Shown here: piece after piece, positions 5,433-11,169 of the stretch | Position numbering within the stretch: the stretch's first letter is position 1 | Layout of the letters: each line of letters begins with the position of its first letter | From: Haloferax mucosum ATCC BAA-1512 | GTDB lineage: Archaea > Halobacteriota > Halobacteria > Halobacteriales > Haloferacaceae | Length of the DNA stretch: 64,000 bases | Direction: 5' to 3' | Assembly: GCF_000337815.1 (NCBI RefSeq) | Contig: NZ_AOLN01000018.1 | Span: 434,001 to 498,000 of the forward strand | The notes under the pieces: generated by a model | Told to the model about the DNA's origin: nothing | The model's input: only the letters and a program-made list of their open reading frames with translations | Database searches by the model: none | Made by a program: the position numbers and the translations under genes

Positions 5433-6239
5433 ATGCTCACCTTCATCGGTCTCGGTCTGTACGACGAACAGTCGGTTACGGTCGAGGGCAAGGAAGCGCT
5501 GGCCGATGCCGACCGTGCGTTCGCGGAGTTCTACACGAGCCACCTCGTGGGGGCGACCGTAGAGGACCTCGAAACGTACCACGATATCGATATCGAGGTC
5601 CGCGACCGCGCGGGCGTCGAACAGGACCCTGAAGCGATTCTCGACGCCGCGGAAGACGAACATATCGCGTTCCTCACCGCCGGCGATACGATGATTTCGA
5701 CGACGCACGTGGACCTCCGACTGCGCGCCGAAGAACGCGGCATCGAAACCCGCCTCATCCACGGTGTAACCGCCCAGTCCGCCGCAAGCGGGTTGACCGG
5801 CCTGCAAAACTACCGTTTCGGAAAGGCGGTCACGCTTCCGTTTCCGTACGTCCACGGCGGCGACCCAGTTCCAAAGAGCGTTATCGACTCGCTCGAAGCG
5901 AACCGCGAGCGAGGACTCCACACGCTCGTCTACTTAGACATCAAAGTCGATTGGGAGGGCCGCCGCGGCGTCGAAGTCGAGGGCGACAAATACATGTCCG
6001 CCGAGTACGCGGCCGACCTGTTCGCAACGCACTGGGACGCCGATGCTCTCGGTGTCGCAGTCTGTCGCGCGGGAAGTCCGAACCCCGTCGTCGTCGCTGA
6101 CCGACTGTCCGAACTCGCCGAGCGAGACTTTGGCGAGCCGCTCCACATGCTCGTTATTCCCGGCGAGGTCCACCACGTCGAAGCCGATGCGCTGAGTGCT
6201 CTCGGCGGCGCATCCGAGTCGCTTTTCGACTACGAATAG
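5433..6239 (+). CDS. dphB: Diphthine synthase (elongation factor 2 diphthamide biosynthesis)
   Basis: A 268-residue member of the tetrapyrrole-methylase-fold SAM enzymes. It methylates the modified histidine of aEF2 during diphthamide synthesis. Visible features are the N-terminal strand MLTFIGLGLYDEQSVTVEG, the second-motif region FLTAGDTMISTTHVDLRL where the family has GDPxxATTH, IHGVTAQSAASGLTGLQNYRFGKAVTLPFP, and a C-terminal VIPGEVHHVEADAL. Length fits the family. The frame is open back to 4899, but the conserved start is the ATG at 5433; the upstream part lies opposite the zinc-finger gene and is noncoding. It converges with artA, with only 60 bases between the two stop codons. Confidence 0.95.
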   Translation: MLTFIGLGLYDEQSVTVEGKEALADADRAFAEFYTSHLVGATVEDLETYHDIDIEVRDRAGVEQDPEAILDAAEDEHIAFLTAGDTMISTTHVDLRLRAEERGIETRLIHGVTAQSAASGLTGLQNYRFGKAVTLPFPYVHGGDPVPKSVIDSLEANRERGLHTLVYLDIKVDWEGRRGVEVEGDKYMSAEYAADLFATHWDADALGVAVCRAGSPNPVVVADRLSELAERDFGEPLHMLVIPGEVHHVEADALSALGGASESLFDYE

Positions 6240-6299: not shown

Positions 6300-7232
6300 T
6301 TACGCGCGGCGGTTACGCGGTGCGTCGAGGCCAAGTTCGTTTCGGAGGTCGTACTCCTCACCAGTGACCATGTACAACACGTCCTCGATAATCGTGAGGA
6401 GCTCCGGTACTTCCTGGACGACTAAGTACGTGATACCGATGAGTGCGACGACGGCGAGCACCTGGCTGATGATGCGGTCGGAAATAAAGAACGACACCAT
6501 GTACGGGTCGGACGACCCGAACAAGAACAGAATTTCGTCAACGAACAGGTGGAAGTACTGCTTTCCGACAGAAATCGTGATGAACGTCGTTCGGAGTAGG
6601 TTCAGCGCGTAGATAATCGGGACGGCAATAGCCAGTCCGCGAATCTTCCGCCGAATCGGTGCATCGACGGCCGCGATGAGGCCCGCAAAGATAGCGATAC
6701 TTCCGAGACCGGTACACGCAAGGACGACCGAAATCTCGATTCGGTGCGAGCCTTGCATCCACAGGAAGGTGTTATCGTAGCCTTGCGACCCGATAATCAT
6801 CTCCGGCGAGTACCCGAGTAGATTGATGAGGAAGTGCGTCTGTGCCGCGACGGTCTCCATCAGGATACCGCGCGGTGCAGGTATCGTCGTTCCGAGAAGT
6901 GTGAACGCAGGAATCGTCTCGAAGGGGAGGTAGACGACACCCATCGCCGCGACCGCTCGGGAGAGCACAAAGAGGGTGTCCCGCCCCGTAAACAGGAGCC
7001 AACCGGCGTAGAGACACGCCGGGACGGCCGCAATCGTCAGCAATCCCTCGACGTAGCTCTTGTGGACGAGCGTGAAGTGTGGGATGAGTTGTAACCAGAA
7101 GATAGCAAAAAGCACCCACGCCGCGGCCATCACCCGACGTCCGAGTTTGCGGTCACGCCCGCTGGCGACCGCACCCGCAACGAAGGTGGCGATGACTACC
7201 CACGCAAGGACATCGGAGAGTAGTCCGGGCAT
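6300..7232 (-). CDS. artA: Archaeosortase A
   Basis: A 310-residue multi-span membrane transpeptidase that recognises PGF-CTERM tails of secreted proteins, cuts them and passes them on for C-terminal lipid anchoring. Numbering from the ATG at 7232 puts the catalytic Cys at 173 (in LACTGLGS), Arg at 214 (in NLLRTTF) and Arg at 253 (in SDRIIS). These are the triad positions I recall for the Haloferax volcanii enzyme, which supports this start over one at 7256. About eight hydrophobic segments are visible. The next gene downstream of its promoter region encodes an S-layer protein with a PGF-CTERM tail, so enzyme and likely substrate are adjacent. Confidence 0.97.
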   Translation of the reverse strand: MPGLLSDVLAWVVIATFVAGAVASGRDRKLGRRVMAAAWVLFAIFWLQLIPHFTLVHKSYVEGLLTIAAVPACLYAGWLLFTGRDTLFVLSRAVAAMGVVYLPFETIPAFTLLGTTIPAPRGILMETVAAQTHFLINLLGYSPEMIIGSQGYDNTFLWMQGSHRIEISVVLACTGLGSIAIFAGLIAAVDAPIRRKIRGLAIAVPIIYALNLLRTTFITISVGKQYFHLFVDEILFLFGSSDPYMVSFFISDRIISQVLAVVALIGITYLVVQEVPELLTIIEDVLYMVTGEEYDLRNELGLDAPRNRRA

Positions 7233-7421
7233 ACATGTGGGAACACGTGGACCCAATAAATCCCTTGCCGTTCCGTGCGTCGAGGCTGCGAGACCGTCTG
7301 AGTATCCGAATTATCTGGTGTTAGTGACTATCCCGTCGGGTTCGAATATTGGATTCGACGAGAGAACCAGAGGTGGCGGCGCTATCGCTCGGGCGACAGC
7401 GTCAATAAAGAAGTTGAGGGG

Positions 7422-7439
7422 ACCGGGAACGAACCCGGT
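7422..7439 (-). terminator. Hairpin downstream of the S-layer gene
   Basis: On the minus strand ACCGGG, a 6-base loop and CCCGGT form a perfect 6-bp GC-rich stem beginning 15 bases past the S-layer stop codon. A C/T-rich tract ending TTCTTTATT follows. The position and fold suit transcription termination or 3' end stabilisation of a very abundant mRNA. It also lies between the S-layer gene and artA, so it would limit read-through into artA. Confidence 0.6.
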
Positions 7440-7453
7440 AGTTAAGACGTATT

Positions 7454-10030
7454 TTAGTCGCGGCGGACGGCGAGGAGTGCCGCGGCGACGAGCGCGACGA
7501 GAGCGACCGAGATACCGAAGCCAGGCGTGCTGGACTCGGTGGTCTCTTCGGACTCATCAGTCGGCTCTTCGGTTGCGGTTGCCGTCTCCGTGGATTCCTC
7601 GGTCGTCGGCTCTTCGGTTGCGGTTGCCGTCTCCGTGGATTCCTCGGTTGCCGTTTCTTCAGTCGTCGTTTCTGCGACAGCACCGACGGTACCGTCAGCG
7701 GTGGCGTCCGATGCGGTGCCCTTGTCGGCAGAGACGGTCACTTCGAACGTATCGTTCAGCTTCTGCTCCGAGAAGTCAAATGCAGAGGAGAACGTACCAT
7801 CAGCCTGGACGTAGACCGTCCCGGTCTTGAGGAAGCGCGGCTGGGTGTCGTCGGTAGACTTCACGCGGACCGTGAGCGCCGTACCGGGGGACACGGAGAC
7901 CGTTCCCGAGATGGTCTGTTCGGCGGCGTTCTGGACGCCGAATTCGTCCTTGTCGAGGTTGAGTTCGGGCTTGACGACTTCGAATTCGGCGGACGTGGAT
8001 TCGCCGTCTTCGGTGTCGGTCAGGTTACCGTCCTCTATGACGTGGAACGTCGCGTTGAACGCGTCGTCGTCCTCGACGAGAGACTGTTCGGATGCACCGT
8101 CGTAGTAGTCCGTACGGGAGGCAGAGACGTCATTCAGATCGTACGCGATGAAGTACGTGTCGTTCTCGCCGTCAGCGATGACCGTGGCGCTGGTGCTGTT
8201 GACGCCCAGGACCTTGGATTCGCGGTTTGGACCGGGGTTCGACTGTTCAACGGTGAGGTTGAACTCGTTGCCCGTGAGCGTGTCGAAGTCCTTCACGTCG
8301 AAGGCACCTTCGAGACCCGTCGCGCTGACCTGGTGGACGACGAAGTCGCCGTTTGCGACCTCGTCAGCTTCCGTCAGGTTCTCGTTTTCGATTGCCTCGT
8401 AGACGTCTTCGGAGTCAGCGAGGTCTGCGCCCGTCGGGGCCGTCCAGATCGTCTGACTGTTCGTGCTACGCTCTTCGAGGACGAGCGTTGCAACGTTGTC
8501 TGCTTCGCCGTCGGTTGCGACTTCGACACCGTAGTCACCGGCGTCGAGAAGAGCGCCCTTTGCGATCTCCGTCGTGATGTCGTCAACCGTGTAGTCGTCG
8601 TCGCCGTCATCAACGTCGAACGAGGCCGTCTTCTTCGGTTCGTACGTGTTGAAGAGGAGCGTGACGACGCCGTCGTCGTTACCGTCTTCGACGGTGATGT
8701 TAGCGCTGTAACCGAGCTTCGCTTCACCGACCGTAACCGTGGCGGTGTCCGTCCCTTCGAGGGTCACGTTGATTTCGGCGATGTCGCCGACCTCTTCGTT
8801 AATCACGGAGGACGTGAAGTCGGACGTGGAGTCCTTGGCCTTCGTGACGGAGACCGTGTCGGACTCGACGCTGACACCCGAGTAGGCGTCAGTTACTTCG
8901 ACCGTGTAGTCATCTGCATCAAGCGTGCTGAGGTTGAAGTCGCCTTCACCCTGGCCGTTGAGCGTGATGGTTTCCGTTGCGCCGTCAACCTCGTCACCGT
9001 CGCTGTCGAGCGCGACAACGTCGATGGTTCGGCCGTTAGCCTGTGCGGCGACCGAGCCTTCGAGGGCGTCGTCGGTGGAGATGTTCAGGTCGTCAACGCT
9101 GACCTCGAGACCGAGGTCGCGGACGTCAACTTCAGCGTCCTGCGTGCCACCGATGGTGAAGTCGTAGGTGTCGAGCTGCTGGCCGTCGGTGTCGAAGACG
9201 AAGACCTGGCTGTTGTCGCCAGTGGAACCAGCGAACTGGTAGTTGCTGTCGTCGTCAGTGCCTTCAACTTCGACCGAAACGCCGGTCGAACCAGCATCGA
9301 CTGCGACTTTCGAACCCTTGTACGCCGTGTTGTTGGACTTGCTAGCGACGTAGACGGGTGCGAACGTGACGTCTTCCGTGGCGGAGGCCGTGTTACCGGA
9401 GCCGTCCGTCACCTTGTACGTGACTTCGAGGTCGTCCGTGTAGACCTTCGAGAGCGTGACCACAAGCTGGCCACCGTTCTTGGTGAAGCTCTGCGTCAGG
9501 TTGGATTCGCCGTCCGTGACGTTCAGCTTGCTGACGCTGACCGTCTCGTCGAAGGCGACTTCAACCTTCGGCGTTCCGTCGTCGTAGTGAACTGCCGAAG
9601 AGAATTCCGGCTTCTCGGAGGCAGTGACGGTGAGCTCGGCACCCTTTTTAACACCAGCAGCAGCTCCATCAGTGAAGCTACCAGTCTCAAGAGCAGAAAC
9701 GTTGTAGGTTCCTGTAGAGACATCGGCAAGGTCAAGAGCAGTAGGGAAGTTGCTCGCGTCACCAGAAGTGACATTCGGTTCAGATGTGTTATAGTAGCCA
9801 TCACCGTTGATGTCTACCCACACTTGGAACGTTCCAGCAGAGCCGTCATTATCGTTAACAGACGTAACGCCGACAGACGCACTCGAACCTGCTTCAACAG
9901 AAGTGGTGTCGAGCGTAACGTCATCGACAGTCGCGGCAGCCGTACCCGTGAACGCGATGGACCCGGCAAAGACCGAGAAGACCATCAGCGCAGCGAGTAG
10001 GACCGCGCGGATTTGTTTGTTTTGTGTCAT
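7454..10030 (-). CDS. S-layer-like surface glycoprotein with PGF-CTERM anchor
   Basis: An 858-residue secreted protein. The signal peptide is MTQNKQIRAVLLAALMVFSVFAGSIAFTGTAAA, very like Haloferax S-layer pre-proteins. The mature protein is highly acidic and beta-rich, with repeated Ig-like stretches and many N-x-S/T sequons for N-glycosylation. Near residue 785 begins a Thr/Glu/Ser-rich stalk (likely O-glycosylated) with two near-identical 15-residue repeats, then STPGFGISVALVALVAAALLAVRRD: a PGF motif, a TM helix and basic residues, the archaeosortase A signal. It is probably the major S-layer glycoprotein or a paralogue of it. Codon usage in roughly the first 130 codons is less GC-biased than in the rest. 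Confidence 0.88.
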   Translation of the reverse strand: MTQNKQIRAVLLAALMVFSVFAGSIAFTGTAAATVDDVTLDTTSVEAGSSASVGVTSVNDNDGSAGTFQVWVDINGDGYYNTSEPNVTSGDASNFPTALDLADVSTGTYNVSALETGSFTDGAAAGVKKGAELTVTASEKPEFSSAVHYDDGTPKVEVAFDETVSVSKLNVTDGESNLTQSFTKNGGQLVVTLSKVYTDDLEVTYKVTDGSGNTASATEDVTFAPVYVASKSNNTAYKGSKVAVDAGSTGVSVEVEGTDDDSNYQFAGSTGDNSQVFVFDTDGQQLDTYDFTIGGTQDAEVDVRDLGLEVSVDDLNISTDDALEGSVAAQANGRTIDVVALDSDGDEVDGATETITLNGQGEGDFNLSTLDADDYTVEVTDAYSGVSVESDTVSVTKAKDSTSDFTSSVINEEVGDIAEINVTLEGTDTATVTVGEAKLGYSANITVEDGNDDGVVTLLFNTYEPKKTASFDVDDGDDDYTVDDITTEIAKGALLDAGDYGVEVATDGEADNVATLVLEERSTNSQTIWTAPTGADLADSEDVYEAIENENLTEADEVANGDFVVHQVSATGLEGAFDVKDFDTLTGNEFNLTVEQSNPGPNRESKVLGVNSTSATVIADGENDTYFIAYDLNDVSASRTDYYDGASEQSLVEDDDAFNATFHVIEDGNLTDTEDGESTSAEFEVVKPELNLDKDEFGVQNAAEQTISGTVSVSPGTALTVRVKSTDDTQPRFLKTGTVYVQADGTFSSAFDFSEQKLNDTFEVTVSADKGTASDATADGTVGAVAETTTEETATEESTETATATEEPTTEESTETATATEEPTDESEETTESSTPGFGISVALVALVAAALLAVRRD
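7561..7648. repeat. Tandem 45-bp repeat coding for the Thr-rich stalk
   Basis: Two in-frame copies, 7561-7605 and 7606-7648 (the second differs at its edge), encode TEESTETATATEEPT-type 15-residue units on the minus strand. The copies are essentially identical at DNA level, including third positions, which points to recent duplication. Copy number could vary between strains and would lengthen or shorten the spacer between the folded domains and the membrane anchor. Confidence 0.8.
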
Positions 10031-10252
10031 TGTTATAGATTGATCTATAAGCGGCGAAACAGCTTTCTGCCCTCGTGCCCGGGGGTAGGACCGGGCTAGG
10101 GATTACTTGCTGAGATCACCTTGGGTAGGGGTACGAAAGCGAGTCACTGGAGTCACGATAAATACTTTGTGGAATGTCTTGGTCACTAGAACGTCACGGG
10201 TGCCAAAATATCAAAATTAGAATACTACTCAATAGTTGTAGTATATATTACT
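10031..10252 (-). promoter_or_regulatory. S-layer promoter and structured mRNA leader
   Basis: This 222-base noncoding region lies upstream of the S-layer gene. A TATA-like TATTTATC (minus strand) at 10157-10164 predicts a start near 10135 and a leader of about 105 bases, similar in length to the long S-layer leader I recall in Haloferax volcanii. The leader holds two hairpins: GCCCGG/CCGGGC at 10077-10096, and TTATAGAT-TG-ATCTATAA at 10033-10050, which ends two bases before the start codon. The second would cover the ribosome-binding region and may tune translation or mRNA stability. Confidence 0.6.
10205..10244 (-). terminator. Hairpin plus T-rich tract after the glyoxalase-fold gene
   Basis: On the minus strand, nine bases past the stop codon of the glyoxalase-fold gene, ATACTAC and GTAGTAT pair as a 7-bp stem (10222-10244), followed by TTCTAATTTTGATATTTTGG. 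Stem plus T-rich stretch is a good archaeal termination signal, and it separates that gene from the S-layer promoter just downstream. Confidence 0.6.
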
Positions 10253-11032
10253 CTATTCTGGTGACTCGAAATCGGCCGGGAGAATTTCGACTTCGTGTCC
10301 GTCTTGGTCTTTAGTAAACGCGAACATGTCGTCACACGACTCGGGAGTGCGGTACGCTTCGGCCTCGCGTTCCATGAGCGTCTCCCAGTATTCGTTGAGG
10401 TCGTCGGCACGGACAGCGAGATGCCCCCAGGCATCGCCCATCTCGTAGGACCGGCCGTCGTAGTTGTACGTGAGTTCGACCGCCATCGCCTCTTCTGCGG
10501 CGTCTTCCGGCTTCACAAAGTAGTTTGCGAAGGTATCGGATTCCCAGCGGCCGGTGTGTTCGTATTCGAACTTTCGAGTCCAGAAGCCGAGCGCTTCGTC
10601 GGCGTCTTCGACACGAATCATCGTGTGGTCGAGACTCCACTTGGCACCGTAGTCGCGCTTGACAATTTCGACTTCGTGCCCGTCTGGGTCTTTCACGAAC
10701 GCGTAGCGGCCACCACATGATTCGGGGTCGCGGTAGTCGTCAACGCCTTCGTCCAACAACTGTTGATACGACGATTCCAGTTCGTCCTCGGGGACACGAA
10801 CGGCGATGTGCCCCCAGGCATCGCCCATCTCGTAAGTGTGGTTGCCGTGGTTGTACGTGAGTTCGAGCACCGCGCCGTCCTCGTGAAGTTCTTCGGGACC
10901 GAGATAGACGTTAGTGAACGTATCGGCTTCCCAGCGGCCTTTCTCTTCATAATTGAGGTGGGTCGTGTACCAGTCGAGCGATTCTTCGAGGTCCTCAACA
11001 CGAAGCATTACGTGGTCGAGCGTTCCGGACAT
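10253..11032 (-). CDS. Glyoxalase/VOC-fold protein with two tandem domains
   Basis: A 259-residue protein made of two VOC domains in series. Domain 1 (about 1-130) starts GTLDHVMLRVEDLEESLDWY and ends DPDGHEVEIVKRD. Domain 2 (about 135-255) starts WSLDHTMIRVEDADEALGFW and ends DQDGHEVEILPAD. Both retain the His and Glu positions of the metal site, and both have an ELTYN-x-GDAWGH block like lactoylglutathione lyase. It may detoxify methylglyoxal with a haloarchaeal thiol such as gamma-glutamylcysteine; that substrate is inferred. Methylglyoxal synthase is encoded at 37906-38289. The ATG at 11032 is used rather than the TTG six bases upstream. Confidence 0.88.
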   Translation of the reverse strand: MSGTLDHVMLRVEDLEESLDWYTTHLNYEEKGRWEADTFTNVYLGPEELHEDGAVLELTYNHGNHTYEMGDAWGHIAVRVPEDELESSYQQLLDEGVDDYRDPESCGGRYAFVKDPDGHEVEIVKRDYGAKWSLDHTMIRVEDADEALGFWTRKFEYEHTGRWESDTFANYFVKPEDAAEEAMAVELTYNYDGRSYEMGDAWGHLAVRADDLNEYWETLMEREAEAYRTPESCDDMFAFTKDQDGHEVEILPADFESPE

Positions 11033-11169
11033 ATCCAACAGGTGAGGCGTACGGGCGAAAAAACGTACCGAACGCGGAACTCACCGTCGAGAGTTGTTAC
11101 GGGGGTGTAAACCGGAAGAGACGGGTCGTTACGTGTCTCATAAGTACCCTGAACGATTACGAGTTGGTC

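Follow-up and report, generated by a model that had tools for sequence, protein, structure and literature searches.

Why a gene for a surface layer (S-layer) glycoprotein should lie beside the gene for archaeosortase A, the enzyme that would process it, is the question raised by a locus of Haloferax mucosum ATCC BAA-1512. The window, which is the whole stretch of 64,000 nucleotides analysed here (G000:C18:434001-498000), comes from a genome assembly of 3.37 Mb in 20 contigs and carries the S-layer glycoprotein (SLG) gene SLG1 at 7454..10030 and artA at 6300..7232, both on the minus strand. SLG1 is very probably one of two main S-layer glycoproteins of the strain, ancestral at the artA locus, expressed from a promoter separate from that of artA and preceded by an RNA leader that is found at S-layer genes. 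No prior report of the SLG-artA linkage or of the S-layer leader was found in the open-licence literature, and the leader seems not to have been catalogued before.

SLG1 encodes 858 amino acids and matched NF041335, the 'ArtA-dependent S-layer glycoprotein' family, over residues 1-858 with 1551.6 bits (cut-off 1100). A signal peptide region covers residues 1-34 (9929..10030, minus strand) with the TIGR04207 surface-glycoprotein signal at residues 6-34, while a PGF-CTERM sorting signal covers residues 831-858 (7457..7540, minus strand), scoring above the cut-offs of TIGR04126 (45.6 bits) and PF18204 (27.9 bits) and including the PGF motif, the hydrophobic stretch and the basic end. The model for the HVO_2072 type of S-layer glycoprotein, TIGR04216, reached 58.2 bits against a cut-off of 400 and matched the C-terminal part only. 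The 310-residue ArtA matched TIGR04125 over its full length (344.5 bits, cut-off 75), and its start was revised to a conserved ATG at 7232, which is likelier than the TTG at 7256 of the listed open reading frame. Numbered from this ATG, Cys173, Arg214 and Arg253, which we take to be the catalytic residues of archaeosortase A, were invariant in 8/8 aligned Haloferax ArtA sequences, and the window enzyme shows no difference from an ordinary member of its family. An earlier sequence-only reading had described both the PGF-CTERM protein beside artA and an ArtA with its Cys/Arg/Arg set complete, and these descriptions were borne out. SLG1 lies upstream of artA on the same strand with 221 bases between its stop and the artA ATG, and on these profile matches is a true ArtA-type S-layer glycoprotein gene.

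Directly before the SLG1 start codon is a predicted structured 5' leader of 104 bases (10031..10134, minus strand), which was matched by the covariance model R1 with 67.8 bits (E 1.3e-16) and was the sole R1 match in the window. The leader starts with the 13-base signature GTACCCCTACCCA (10122-10134, minus strand), and a TATA-box-like TATTTA (10159..10164, minus strand) is located 24 bases before the signature, a spacing conserved in SLG leaders; transcription of SLG1 would start near 10134. The upstream regions of SLG1, of a second S-layer gene of the same genome (SLG2) and of the HVO_2072-type genes had the motif GTACCCCT(A/G)CCCA in common, positioned 24-25 bases after the TATA-like box and ~65-110 bases before the start codon, and the 13-base signature was also present at the HVO_2072-type genes of three relatives examined. 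The pattern GTACCCCTRCYCA returned 30 sites in 15 Haloferax genomes, 27 of them at the starts of S-layer genes or gene fragments, and the reversed pattern returned 6. In the loci sampled, 58 distinct signature sites were identified, of which 53 preceded a surface-glycoprotein-type protein, one was cut by the locus end and four were unrelated. Of 391 haloarchaeal genomes, 135 had the combined pattern of TATA box and signature, and by genus it occurred in 40 of 86 (reversed control 0 among the matches listed). Loci from other families had a surface-protein-type signal peptide right behind the signature in 30/30 cases, and all ten proteins tested behind a leader matched TIGR04207 or NF041335, several of them weakly.

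Searches with R1 covered 89 sources and then 54 of ~293 loci, which were chosen because a leader or artA was known or likely to be there. R1 matched at 24 places in the 15 Haloferax genomes. Each was at an S-layer gene or a fragment of one and none at artA, and exactly two of these sites were in the window genome, at SLG1 and SLG2. The genomes of H. denitrificans, H. sulfurifontis and H. massiliensis, which make up an H. volcanii-type clade, gave no R1 match at E<=0.01; the leader of this HVO_2072 type has ~80 bases and scored 15 bits, compared with 104 bases and 67.8 bits for SLG1. Across the class, R1 matched in 77 of 145 sampled haloarchaeal genomes, and the weak matches included sites just upstream of TIGR04216-type genes in genomes G098 and G066. 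No Rfam 15 family was matched at E<=1 by the window stretch 7200-10300, and on seven other leader loci tRNAs alone reached the gathering score. The leader resembles known structured leader RNAs in its position upstream of one type of gene, with no family match among them. It belongs to S-layer genes as such, SLG1, SLG2 and their counterparts class-wide, and not to artA.

The proposed fold begins with the unpaired 5' signature. A helix P1, in which GGUGxCAG pairs with CUGUCGCC, and a helix P2 follow, separated by an internal loop with AGUA opposite GAAA, and a hairpin of variable form comes last; the fold was clearest outside SLG2. This two-helix structure was drawn by hand from single folds, because RNAalifold without a given structure kept few pairs, and was then tested. 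A set of 76 leaders was reduced to 35 after dropping those longer than 140 bases, those containing N, the three volcanii-type leaders and those 88% alike. Alignment A2, built from sequence only and independent of the model, took 29 of the 35; several of the six omitted leaders (L021, L067, L108, L123, L292, L293) fit the helices poorly, so that their omission favours the structure, and all six were recovered as model hits in alignment A3, whose 87 model hits were fitted to the model and lean its way. Paired cells amounted to 77.1% in A2 against 67.0% in shuffled and 33-55% in slid controls, and to 80.0% in A3 against 66.8% and 34-57%, respectively. The covariation score was 0.301 in A2 (0.171 shuffled, 0.061-0.135 slid) and 0.325 in A3 (0.161 shuffled, 0.056-0.107 slid). 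AGUA was invariant in 29/29 leaders with GAAA opposite in most, and AGUA opposite GAA between flanking helices is presumably what defines the sarcin-ricin or loop E internal loop. One volcanii-type leader folded into a comparable helix-loop-helix. Covariation above both the shuffled and the slid controls indicates that the leader is a structured RNA.

The alternative that survives best, although we consider it unlikely, is that the conserved leader works as a DNA element, an extended initiator or regulator site, rather than as a functional RNA. Conservation is highest in the unpaired 13-mer, at the presumed transcription start, and folding energies were often ordinary. The SLG1 leader folded with -33.2 kcal/mol (z -3.34), but the single-leader z values of -3.34, -2.16, -1.40, -0.50, +0.41 and -1.05 were often no better than those of shuffled sequences. 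RNAalifold alone kept 5 pairs on A3, and several upper pairs of P1 and P2 were broken in 30-45% of the sequences. These observations together weigh against a structured RNA; the covariation above controls in both alignments and the invariant AGUA, in turn, argue against an element that acts as DNA.

The linkage of SLG1 with artA was followed across the genus and the family. One artA match was present in each of the 15 Haloferax genomes, and SLG1 lay directly upstream in 12 of them, including G003, where the pair spans a contig break, and G012, where the contig ends short of the SLG start. The exceptions were the three volcanii-type genomes, in which no NF041335 gene of the SLG1 type was found, the TIGR04216 gene sits on another contig than artA and a glyoxalase-type gene comes immediately before artA. 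In a tree of five flanking proteins these three fell within the genus, next to the H. gibbonsii group (joint group support 100), and a resemblance to the SLG-artA spacer of the H. gibbonsii relatives persists in the ~100 bases ahead of their artA. Owing to this nested position and the residual spacer-like DNA, SLG1 was most likely lost in the volcanii-type clade.

For the family as a whole, 100 artA regions, six of them from Haloferax, were compared out of 168 artA-bearing genomes. Sampling was non-random in that the first ten regions were chosen for a known nearby SLG and the rest were nearly all other listed places, with 16/52 of g21. An SLG-type gene was directly upstream of artA, on the same strand and at <=1500 bases, in 40 of the 94 regions outside Haloferax, and 36 of these neighbours, in 13 genera, had a recognised PGF-type tail; a further six regions had an SLG-type gene nearby and 48, all sampled g19 and g26 regions among them, were without one. 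Halogranum had the pair in both of its loci. A directly adjacent pair was absent from the sampled regions of g17 (0/12), g19 (0/15), g21 (0/16) and g26, although one g17 and one g21 region carry a PGF-type gene downstream, and artA was retained in 168 of 170 family genomes. Since 12 of 15 Haloferax genomes and many other genera have the pair, the pairing is an ordinary and old synteny, and the evidence from gene order and trees indicates that it is ancestral and predates the genus. The sequence-only reading had proposed either a specialised second S-layer or a main S-layer gene that had moved beside its processing enzyme, and neither proposal agrees with this distribution. Its suggested comparison of artA neighbourhoods in relatives showed an arrangement so widely shared that its own ground for refutation largely applied, with the volcanii-type clade as the exception. 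Variants of the locus were also seen. Loci of Halomarina, Natronomonas and Haloglomus (L067, L068, L069) have two artA genes, either adjacent or separated by ~1.3 kb, and in G169 (L140) two tandem SLG-type genes precede artA, each with its own leader (7723-7842 and 10885-11001).

On the minus strand of the window the order of transcription is a glyoxalase-type gene, SLG1 and artA, with dph5 on the opposite strand. The two outer genes are conserved flanks and encode a glyoxalase-type VOC protein (10253..11038, minus strand), the direct artA neighbour in the three Haloferax genomes without SLG1, and diphthine synthase (5502..6239, plus strand; TIGR00522 213.9 bits and synteny). A TATA-box-like TTTATT is located 22 bases before the artA ATG (7255..7260, minus strand), as would suit a promoter of the leaderless type. 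The block GGGATTTA, ~25 bases before the artA ATG, was conserved in 11/11 aligned Haloferax loci including the three without an SLG, and the same block is present before the window artA. After the SLG stop there is a hairpin, ACCGGG/CCCGGT, with a pyrimidine-rich tail (7404..7439, minus strand), a possible transcription end that is visible in most of the aligned relatives. Co-transcription of SLG1 and artA is unlikely because artA has its own conserved TATA box, which is kept even where the SLG is missing; an operon in which artA lacks a promoter of its own is thus at odds with the sequence, and artA is probably transcribed separately. The further suggestion that the shared location co-regulates substrate and enzyme does not accord with these separate conserved promoter elements or with a leader that marks S-layer genes and not artA.

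It is improbable, if less so than the explanations considered below, that the neighbourhood is functional and couples ArtA expression to its bulk substrate through read-through or a shared regulator. The pair has been kept over many genera of the family and its spacing is short. In addition, the post-SLG hairpin was not called in a scan for bacterial-type terminators, and read-through from SLG1 into artA is therefore possible, both of which tell against separate transcription. However, the artA TATA block stands in all 11 loci, SLG-less ones included, the leader was never at artA in the 15 genomes, and the pair is absent from whole genera though artA is kept almost throughout the family.

A second NF041335-type gene, SLG2, was located at G000:C6:45932-48643, and the earlier advice to look for another S-layer gene elsewhere in the genome was in this respect well founded. 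A conserved-core SLG tree, drawn midpoint-rooted, grouped SLG1 with the artA-linked genes of three other genomes and the artA-near gene of G062, apart from SLG2, with a support of 100. The same two-paralog arrangement is described for H. gibbonsii, with HfgLR_04635 / ABY42_04395 and HfgLR_11210, in the available portions of two published accounts (PMC7921747, PMC9973310), which make no mention of the artA neighbourhood or of the leader. Both S-layer proteins are reported from the S-layer band of strain LR2-5, and the identified S-layer glycoprotein is a homolog with 99% identity to HfgLR_04635 (PMC7921747). HfgLR_11210 probably serves as the receptor for virus HFTV1, and its deletion is viable and blocks HFTV1 (PMC9973310). 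In H. gibbonsii ATCC 33959, SLG1 is artA-linked and 70% identical to the window SLG1, and SLG2 has a Thr-rich stretch at 235-246, and the published account places a Thr-rich motif of HfgLR_11210 at 237-246. From this stretch we infer that SLG1 corresponds to HfgLR_04635 and SLG2 to HfgLR_11210, and the indirectness of that step counts against the account favoured here. No pilin genes, a possible link to HfgLR_11210, were found beside SLG2 by a search with a pilin sequence pattern.

That SLG1 is a minor surface protein and no S-layer subunit is very improbable. Several other genes of the window genome have similar C-terminal parts, and presence in the S-layer is reported only for a homolog (PMC7921747). 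Opposed to this are the full-length equivalog match to NF041335, the S-layer leader, the homolog identified as the SLG of H. gibbonsii in the same source (PMC7921747) and the predicted structure. A PDB sequence search with SLG1 gave no match at E<=1, and an AlphaFold model built from 11 sequences had a mean predicted local distance difference test score (pLDDT) of 68.4. Foldseek ranked 7ptp_A, the S-layer protein of H. volcanii, first among the matches of this model (E 2.4e-14, 11% identity). Template modelling scores (TM-scores) against 7ptp_A were low at 0.28/0.32, which is attributed to flexibly strung domains, and the following matches were other chains of immunoglobulin-like (Ig-like) domains; Foldseek therefore backs the architecture more than the exact fold, and the model supports SLG1 as a chain of Ig-like domains. 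Hardly credible is a recent arrival of SLG1 beside artA or a role as a specialised second S-layer, for which two S-layer paralogs in one genome could be cited, but the pair is present in 12 of 15 Haloferax genomes and other genera and SLG1 groups with their artA-linked genes.

The H. volcanii S-layer protein HVO_2072 (TIGR04216) shares with SLG1 the signal peptide, the Ig-like domains, the PGF-CTERM tail and the status of an ArtA substrate, but unlike SLG1 its gene is not at artA. At thresholds of 1e-100 and 1e-60, NF041335-type genes were present in 34 and TIGR04216-type genes in 46 of 170 family genomes; about half had neither, and both types occurred in G077 only, a genome that is 79% complete. 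Because the two types are almost mutually exclusive, it looks as if one has been exchanged for the other. Replacement of SLG2 in situ by an HVO_2072-type gene in the volcanii-type clade was considered and rejected, as the loci, with flanks of ~6-8 kb, share only short within-gene matches. Two further candidates were dropped. One was the third SLG present in H. elongans (G003:C5), considered as a pseudogene or as a donor cassette, whose stretch contains N; the other was an N-terminal SLG fragment at G007:C3, which is cut by the contig end.

Residues 38-145 of SLG1 (9596..9919, minus strand) form a hypervariable N-terminal domain with 22-53% identity to other SLG1 proteins, compared with ~60-80% across most of the remaining protein. 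Third-position GC was 0.48-0.62 in codons 1-150 and 0.68-0.88 further on. The domain behaves like a swapped module, and appears to be exchanged as a cassette between near-identical SLG genes. The SLG2 proteins of H. gibbonsii and G014 (L023 and L025) were 92% identical in the signal region, 34% in the N-terminal domain and 96% in the core. In H. prahovense and strain Q22 (L030, L031), SLG2 is without the N-terminal domain and its core is 62-65% identical to that of H. gibbonsii SLG2 (L023), while the same comparison gives 98-99% identity for the five proteins flanking artA and 88-98% for the SLG1 core. Such divergence of SLG2 would fit a virus-driven turnover of the HFTV1 receptor paralog.

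Taken together, SLG1 would have been inherited at the artA locus from ancestors older than the genus, and its product would be exported by means of the signal peptide and then fold as a chain of Ig-like domains. By analogy with the family, ArtA would cut and lipid-anchor the protein at its PGF-CTERM tail, as for the H. volcanii S-layer protein. Each gene would have a promoter of its own, SLG1 a TATA box followed by the 104-base structured leader and artA one of the leaderless type. The leader would raise or tune the translation or stability of one of the most abundant messages of the cell; its most likely role is to keep translation or stability of the S-layer message at a level that is high and can be adjusted, and a ligand- or protein-binding switch is possible. 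More tentatively, and with a little less than even likelihood, it is a class-wide regulatory RNA, built on a loop E-like AGUA/GAAA core, that sets the amount of S-layer by sensing or binding some factor. This factor may then be ions, a ribosomal protein, a protein that binds RNA or an S-layer precursor, and the leader may be retained through duplication or replacement of the protein and through exchange of its outer domain.

Most haloarchaeal messages lack a leader, and a class-wide folded leader on messages that are usually among the most abundant runs counter to that expectation. The clade of the model species is the exception, since most of the genus, the window strain included, has NF041335-type genes, one of which adjoins artA. 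While the pair is ordinary, the leader matters more, as it would provide a simple marker by which to pick out the true S-layer gene of a haloarchaeon and would make the control of S-layer synthesis testable.

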